Source: Byssothecium circinans
Taxonomy: Eukaryota; Ascomycota; Dothideomycetes; Pleosporales; Massarinaceae
Direction of reading: 5' to 3'
Length of the DNA: 64,000 nt
Assembly (NCBI GenBank): GCA_010015675.1
Contig: ML977029.1
Span: 246,218-310,217, forward strand
The notes beneath the pieces are model-generated. The model saw nothing but the letters and a program-made list of their open reading frames with translations, had not been told where the DNA came from and did no database searches. A program made the position numbers and the translations under genes. Shown here piece by piece: positions 16,390 to 38,001 of the stretch; the first letter of the stretch is position 1; each line of letters starts with the position of its first letter.

Positions 16390-17046
16390 CTAGTAGAAGA
16401 AACCAAGGATCTTGCCAGCAACGTGCTTCCTCCTAGCCTCCTCGTGGTCCATGATACCGGCCGAGGTGGTGAGGACGATGTAACCGAACTGACGCGAAGG
16501 GAGCAGCTTGACGACCCACTTCTCAAGATCACGGAGCTGGATGTTGTAGCGGGGGGAGATGACGCCAGTCTTGTTGACCTGTAGAATTTATTAGATGATG
16601 GTTCTGAGCCGGATAGAGTGAGGCATTATGGGAACGTACGCGGCCGTTGAGCTGAATAATGACCTTGCCGTTGCGGTGGTCATCGACCTCCTCGAACTCG
16701 CCAATGTAGCCTGCAGGTGGAAATCAGCATGTTGCGAAGAAATAAACATCAGACGTCATGTAAAAGAATCCGAAGACGTGTAAGTTCTTCGCAGGATCGC
16801 TCTATCGGGCACTTAAAGGGCGAAAGGTCGTGGAGAGAACGAGACCATTGCCTAGTTATCAACCCGAAGAAAAGAAAAACGTAAATAGACAGATACGAGA
16901 AATAGGTGCGTACCGTGCTTCTGCATGACGGTCAAGAACTTGATGATGACCTTGGACGACGGGCGGATGAGGACCTGGCGCTTGCCCGATTTCTCGGCGT
17001 TGTTGATGGCGTTGAGCGCATCGTTGAGGACGGAAGTCTTGACCAT
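16390..17046 (-). CDS. RPS22: 40S ribosomal protein uS8 (S22/S15a)
   Basis: Three exons (17046-16914, 16710-16640, 16578-16390) encode 130 residues, the exact universal length of eukaryotic uS8. The protein starts [20 protein letters not shown], contains [16 protein letters not shown] built across intron 1, and ends [22 protein letters not shown]. It binds 18S rRNA in the 40S body. Intron 1 is 203 nt and intron 2 is 61 nt. A further intron probably lies in the 5'UTR (17305-17103). Three introns crowded at the 5' end are typical of fungal ribosomal protein genes. Confidence 0.97.
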
Positions 17047-37817: not shown

Positions 37818-37959
37818 GCCAGCTTGGCGCAGTGGTAACGCGTTGCACTTGTATTCTCATACATAACATGCAAAGATCACGTAAGCATCTTCTTGTTCGA
37901 TTCCTAGAAGAACCCTTGACCTAATAAGTATTACAGTGGTTCAATTCCAGTAGTTGGCA
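37818..37959 (+). tRNA. tRNA-Thr(UGU) with an anticodon-loop intron and a GT-AG insert in the T-stem
   Basis: Acceptor stem 37818-37824 (GCCAGCT) pairs fully with 37952-37958 (AGTTGGC, one G-U), and the discriminator is A. The D-arm follows with box A TGGCGCAGTGG (37825-37835). The anticodon stem TTGCA/TGCAA is perfect. The loop reads CUUGUA then A once a 14-nt canonical intron (TTCTCATACATAAC) is removed, giving anticodon UGU. After AGATC the T-stem is split: AC at 37879-37880, a 56-nt insert (37881-37936), then TGG TTCAATT CCAGT. Removing the insert, which starts GTAAGC, carries CCTAAT and ends TTACAG, gives ACTGG/CCAGT, a perfect 5-bp stem, and a 72-nt mature tRNA. Box B GGTTCAATTCC (37938-37948) is intact. 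The gene may be functional, or a pseudogene if the insert is not removed. Confidence 0.85.
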
Positions 37960-37993: not shown

Positions 37994-38001
37994 TTTTTTT
38001 T
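37994..38001 (+). terminator. Pol III T-run terminator of tRNA-Thr
   Basis: Eight T residues on the + strand lie 35 bp after the tRNA 3' end, with a second T7 near 38010. This is enough to stop RNA polymerase III, though somewhat further away than usual. Confidence 0.55.

Follow-up and report, generated by a model that had tools for sequence, protein, structure and literature searches.

Probable spliceosomal introns in the nuclear tRNA genes of the fungus Byssothecium circinans

The genome of Byssothecium circinans has at least 14 tRNA genes that are interrupted by at least 15 short inserts, and judged from their sequence these inserts are very likely spliceosomal introns of the mRNA type, situated in nuclear Pol III genes and removed by the spliceosome. 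One of the interrupted genes, for tRNA-Thr(UGU), lies in the window, by which we mean the whole stretch of 64,000 nt that was analysed, and the genome searched was the window's own (48.4 Mb).

The window gene has two introns, one ordinary and one not (Table 1), and its promoter boxes were labelled according to the box A and box B consensus. The RF00005 match to the gene has a cut-off of 29 bits, and the 56-nt insert is aligned as an insertion before the T-arm. When the insert was kept, ARAGORN with anticodon-loop introns allowed gave no tRNA at this locus; when it was removed the result was a tRNA-Thr(tgt) scoring 110.8, whose anticodon loop holds an intron of 14 nt. After splicing, 20 of the 21 stem pairs are standard, the exception being 13-22 in the D stem. 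The excision is also unique. We scanned both strands of the window for GT..AG segments of 40-75 nt with TRAY near the 3' end, and among the 3175 candidates (1394 on the plus and 1781 on the minus strand) only 37881-37936 gave a tRNA score of 110 or higher. A preliminary description of the window had claimed both introns, and they are found as it placed them: ARAGORN sets the 14-nt intron after position 37, and the 56-nt insert is located between T-stem positions 50 and 51 with its GTAAGC, CTAAT and TTACAG all present. Its claim that exact removal from GT to AG repairs the stem is borne out as well, the cloverleaf being obtained only without the insert. The second box-B-like motif, inside the insert, was absent from that description.

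The preliminary description also proposed that the other tRNA genes be searched for such inserts, and this gave the set of 15 with GT or GC at the start and AG at the end; another 30 of the tRNA genes read are without an insert. The RF00005 search of the genome resulted in 50 matches, 46 of them above the cut-off, and all 50 were read. They consist of 28 ordinary genes (some of them with an anticodon-loop intron), 11 interrupted genes and 11 repeats or doubtful copies (L030, L036, L040, L041 and seven repeat copies). Three more interrupted genes came from pattern searches, for Ile (L079), initiator Met (L135) and Trp (L137 with L146, two inserts), together with two ordinary ones, Ala(UGC) (L136) and Asp (L156). 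The inserts are 48-64 nt long and occupy 12 distinct positions in the tRNA body, numbered by stem layout and partly by eye (for Ser wholly by eye). Canonical introns at 37/38 are present in several interrupted genes too, the window gene included. The initiator-Met gene has in addition five extra nucleotides, GAGTT, between A37 and A38; taken as an anticodon-loop intron, this insertion would be unusually short.

Table 1. Features of the window gene, with positions in the window, and inserts in the interrupted tRNA genes of the genome, with positions in the tRNA.
Feature	Coordinates	Strand	Insert position in tRNA	Basis or remark
tRNA-Thr(UGU) gene (L051), whole, two introns	37818..37959	+		RF00005 35.3 bits; ARAGORN tRNA-Thr(tgt) without the 56-nt insert
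Box A, TGGCGCAGTGG	37825..37835	+		read by eye
Anticodon TGT	37850..37852	+		by eye, ARAGORN
Ordinary 14-nt tRNA intron after position 37	37854..37867	+		ARAGORN i(37,14)
56-nt spliceosomal-type intron	37881..37936	+	50/51 (T-stem)	by eye, ARAGORN, excision scan
5' splice site GTAAGC	37881..37886	+
Box-B-like motif GTTCGATTCC inside 56-nt intron	37895..37904	+		motif search with shuffle control
Branch-site motif CTAAT	37921..37925	+		branch A at 37924, 12 nt from intron end
3' splice site AG (TTACAG)	37935..37936	+
T-arm box B, GGTTCAATTCC, intact 3' of 56-nt intron	37938..37948	+		read by eye
Eight-T run, probable Pol III terminator	37994..38001	+		read by eye; inference
L035 Thr(CGU)			3/4
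L042 Arg(ACG)			4/5
L137 (+L146) Trp			9/10 and 45/46
L044 Arg(CCU)			17/18	the GC-AG insert; ARAGORN Arg(cct)
L049 Thr(AGU)			18/19
L079 Ile(AAU)			25/26
L135 initiator Met	G000:C16:963220-963460	-	29/30
L010 Ser(GCU)			variable arm
L051 (window) Thr(UGU)			50/51
L034 Lys(CUU)			52/53
L050 Lys(CUU)			52/53
L038 His(GUG)			52/53
L047 Lys(UUU)			57/58
L048 Lys(CUU)			57/58

Removal of the inserts restores tRNA structure throughout the set. With the inserts kept, ARAGORN missed seven of the first 11 interrupted genes and gave the other four a wrong intron or isotype; with the inserts removed it found a tRNA in all 11, and in 14 of 14 when the later genes are included. For spliced L048 it misplaced the long anticodon intron and called Ser, where reading by eye gives Lys(CUU). 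The stem layout of 12 of the spliced genes (all except L010 and L050) has 19-21 standard pairs out of 21, and among the positions left unpaired are two in His L038, one each in Lys(UUU) L047 and Thr(CGU) L035, and A31-C39 in Trp. The boundaries could also be recovered blind. In 12 genes, with L044 outside the set, all GT-AG excisions passing a branch filter were scored with no boundaries given, and in 10 of them the best score fell exactly on the called excision; for Trp the called pair came out on top. In L010 a different 3' AG combined with the called 5' site scores 0.1 above the called excision, and L042 gave no tRNA because its branch motif, which is not CTRAY, fails the filter.

It is the splicing signals that are constant among the inserts. 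Their ends are GT-AG in 14 of 15 and GC-AG in the remaining one (L044), eight of them start with GTAAG, and 14 have CTRAY with its A placed 9-12 nt from the 3' end, L042 having CTAAA instead. For comparison we collected 21 candidate mRNA introns from the window, all of them sequence-based predictions from a heuristic scan for introns needed for long open reading frames. They are 45-109 nt long (median 61) with the branch A 6-20 nt from the end, a length range that covers all the inserts; the scan itself required GT, AG and CTRAY, so that the comparison is independent only for length, spacing and inner sequence. The mRNA-intron likeness noted in the preliminary description agrees with these heuristic candidates in the length and signal spacing of the window insert. 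The hallmark of group I introns, a T as the last base of exon 1, was present at only one of the 15 inserts, and the group I intron models gave no match at gathering score in the window; small degenerate group I introns of 56-81 nt are known (PMC3160393). As a check for an introner family the inserts were compared with one another, and they share only matches of 10-12 nt. No second copy of any of them was found in the window.

Canonical eukaryotic tRNA introns sit at 37/38, whereas none of the 15 inserts does (numbering partly by eye), and the inserts have spliceosomal signals. Ectopic tRNA introns are described (PMC3978253, PMC8450103) from the red alga Cyanidioschyzon merolae, the nucleomorph of Guillardia theta and Archaea. 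As here, these are scattered over the cloverleaf, T-loop sites included, with several per gene in some cases. Those of C. merolae and Archaea are, according to the same papers, defined by a bulge-helix-bulge that is cut by the tRNA endonuclease, while the constants here are GT-AG and the branch motif; many ectopic introns of G. theta form no defined bulge-helix-bulge. It could be argued that our inserts are also cut by this endonuclease, and that the splicing signals are incidental. Removal of ectopic and multiple tRNA introns in this way is known (PMC3978253), and a four-pair score for the bulge-helix-bulge, 0-3 for the inserts as compared to 2, 3 and 2 for three anticodon-loop controls, did not separate the two groups. 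However, an endonuclease intron has no need for GT-AG ends or a branch motif, each found in 14 of the 15, and the enzymes of other eukaryotes measure to position 37/38, according to the review PMC3978253. We consider removal by the endonuclease quite improbable.

Comparisons with paralogues, in which letters of the D-loop and variable loop were outside the count, point to selection on the spliced form. Over the positions compared, spliced Thr L049 is identical to the insert-free L004, and spliced Arg L042 to the insert-free L017; at the discriminator position L049 has C and L004 has A. Ile L079 differs from the insert-free L019 only in the pairs 6-67 and 52-62, with both partners replaced in each. 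The inserts of the Lys(CUU) genes L034 and L048 sit at different places; between these two genes both partners are changed in 5-68, 7-66 and 50-64 and one partner in 4-69, and no pair is broken. Against this stand a broken D-stem pair in L047 (compared to L034) and another in L035 (compared to L004), as well as the unpaired positions of His L038 and Trp. The preliminary description had left two options for the window gene, a spliced transcript or a freshly broken tRNA, and the 13 further interrupted genes together with these compensatory changes favour the former.

The supply of tRNAs is of importance here, as the interrupted genes could be pseudogenes hit by insertions, with the tRNAs provided by intact copies elsewhere. 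Uninterrupted genes were indeed found for Thr(AGU), Arg(ACG), Ile(AAU) and His(GUG), and decayed copies exist: L138, L139 and L140 are tRNA-Ile(AAU) copies with damaged T-arms, unlike L079, which is interrupted but sound in structure, and they were not counted as genes. The census of tRNA genes is also partial. Of 1497 first-look candidates RF00005 scored 63, and it failed to pick up the ordinary genes L136 and L156, which were found later, so that unseen intact copies are possible. Still, insertions would not all start with GT or GC, end with AG and excise exactly, and the compensatory changes in L079 and in the two Lys(CUU) genes would not be expected. Among the genes read, moreover, Lys(CUU), Lys(UUU), Thr(UGU), Thr(CGU), Ser(GCU), Arg(CCU), initiator Met and Trp were found in interrupted form only; all four Lys genes have inserts, and so have the sole genes found for initiator Met and Trp. 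A supply from intact copies appears very improbable to us.

The D-arm searches agree with the reading that the interrupted genes are the working ones. The Lys(CUU) D-arm has three occurrences in the genome, all in interrupted genes (the Lys pattern gave 36 sites, of which 4 were read). In the D-arm search for initiator Met, Thr(UGU) and Trp, 11 of the 16 sites were read; the initiator-Met D-arm occurs once in the genome, in the interrupted gene, and none of the 16 sites listed is an uninterrupted Trp D-arm. A count of other tRNA-Thr(UGU) genes, suggested in the preliminary description, gave none, the D-arm being unique in the genome when as many as 2 mismatches are allowed, with the same 11 of 16 sites read. 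L160, which nearly matches the initiator D-arm, proved on reading not to be a tRNA. Other searches gave little. An initiator-Met anticodon-arm pattern gave 28 sites, and none of the 23 read was a tRNA; the pattern missed the initiator-Met gene itself because of the 5-nt insertion between A37 and A38. The box-B search gave 166 sites, and of the 10 otherwise unknown sites read among 100 listed one was a tRNA (L156). A search with ten tRNA sequences returned only the known Ala gene, and an A-box pattern matched 50 sites, fewer than the 152 matched by its reversed control; the 49 listed were mostly chance. Among the tRNA genes read we recognised none for Asn, Phe, Tyr, Val, Pro or elongator Met; these genes may be more heavily interrupted, or they may simply have been missed.

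The inserts also have features that fit transcription by Pol III. TTTT is a stop signal for this polymerase, and it is found in none of the 15 inserts as compared to 6 of the 21 candidate mRNA introns (one-sided Fisher p 0.028), or 5 of 13 when only candidates up to 65 nt are considered (Fisher 0.013). The test is modest, since 126 of 5000 shuffles of the inserts were free of TTTT by chance. Both inserts at 57/58 (L047 and L048) split box B, and each carries GTTCGAATC inside; the window insert carries the box-B motif GTTCGATTC. GTTCRANYC is thus found in 3 of the 15 inserts, including both that split box B, and in none of the 21 candidate mRNA introns, while the shuffle control had a mean of 0.06 and reached three in none of 5000 sets. 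The three inserts at 52/53 end with their AG directly before GTTCGA, which means that box B stays whole. The absence of TTTT and the box-B motifs in inserts that split box B are, as far as sequence can tell, signs of selection.

It is also conceivable that the spliceosome removes the inserts but that Pol II, and not Pol III, transcribes the genes. Spliceosomal splicing normally goes with Pol II, according to PMC8527467. Several interrupted genes have, by eye, TATA-like stretches upstream. Upstream TATA elements occur at Pol III tRNA genes of fungi too. What speaks against Pol II is that boxes A and B are retained or almost restored, that box-B motifs are present in the inserts splitting box B, that T runs follow most of the interrupted genes (by eye) and that the inserts are free of TTTT. 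This is the least probable of the explanations that we considered.

A number of other tRNA-like loci were observed in the genome. Seven dispersed, similar copies of about 81 nt, GGTGGGATGGCTYAGT... (L032, L033, L037, L039, L043, L045 and L046), are perhaps a tRNA-derived repeat. L030 and L041 have sound acceptor, D and T arms and an apparent eight-base anticodon loop. L141 and L142 also have these three arms sound, with about 55-57 nt between the halves of the anticodon stem, and were not counted as tRNA genes. L148 and L151+L159 have tRNA-like ends but no GT-AG excision yields a tRNA, and L101 and L103 are longer Pol III-like loci; none of them was counted. These four have A-box-like or box-B ends, some with TATA-like or T-run flanks, and are too long for a tRNA, and they are candidates either for Pol III-type genes or for heavily interrupted tRNAs. 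No tRNA was recognised by eye in L081, L084, L143-L145, L147, L149, L150, L152-L155, L157, L158 and L160. In the window itself there is a borderline Rfam match to the H/ACA snoRNA snR44 (16727-16869, minus strand, 33.4 bits with a cut-off of 33), and the window's Hsp104 has as its best PDB match 5d4w, an entry from the filamentous ascomycete Chaetomium.

We infer that Pol III would transcribe the whole Thr(UGU) gene from boxes A and B. The spliceosome would then recognise GTAAGC, the CTAAT branch site and TTACAG, and join AC to TGG so that the T-stem is restored. The 14-nt anticodon-loop intron would be taken out separately by tRNA endonuclease and ligase, and the order of the two splicing steps is part of this proposal. 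The missing CTRAY in L042, the GC start in L044, the rival AG in L010, the unpaired positions in some spliced genes, the discriminator difference between L049 and L004 and the intronless U6 gene count against this proposal.

In Schizosaccharomyces pombe and some other fungi an mRNA-type intron lies in the gene for U6 snRNA. It is similar to our inserts in being a spliceosomal intron in a Pol III gene, but there it is a single gene whose product is itself a part of the spliceosome, and the U6 gene of the present genome (L052, G000:C14, around 277621-278945) is one full copy with no intron. A box-B-like motif follows its terminator, and nearby are two incomplete copies of U6, one of them inverted. 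The nearest precedent for the inserts is the spliceosomal introns in the rDNA of lichens. The nuclear rDNA of ascomycetes, lichen-forming and others, is described as carrying such introns (Bhattacharya et al. 2000, cited in PMC6652019; PMC8527467), and a 57-bp Cladonia grayi rDNA intron is removed from Pol I transcripts in yeast (PMC8527467). The rDNA introns resemble the inserts in being short mRNA-type introns in a non-coding fungal gene with a polymerase other than Pol II (here probably Pol III). They are, however, in Pol I rRNA genes, while the inserts are spread over numerous individual tRNA genes, each with a small folded RNA as its product and a promoter that is partly inside the gene. 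We found no earlier report of spliceosomal introns in tRNA genes in the open-licence literature, which leaves most subscription papers outside. The element, an ectopic spliceosomal intron, is known; what is new, to the extent of our literature searches, is the class of host, namely many tRNA genes within a single genome.

Splicing of tRNA is described as independent of the spliceosome in a 2026 review (PMC13149111). If the inserts are spliceosomal introns, Pol III transcripts would be routinely spliceable without a cap and the Pol II tail, the usual recruiters of the spliceosome, and even where exon 1 contributes no more than 3-4 nt to the mature tRNA, besides the leader (L035 and L042). The occupied and empty sister genes have equal or nearly equal exons, which opens intron gain to direct study. 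Exon 2 starts with GT at 7 of the 15 inserts, so the empty site already had a GT there, and this may have a bearing on the mode of gain. Since ARAGORN missed or misread all of the first 11 genes, similar genes could be hidden in other fungal genomes with few called tRNAs. It is probable, although less certain than the nature of the inserts, that the initiator-Met, Lys and Trp tRNAs all come from spliceosome-dependent Pol III transcripts, in the case of Trp with two such introns and an anticodon-loop intron, and that the introns splitting box B carry a replacement for it. Protein synthesis in this fungus would then depend on the spliceosome.
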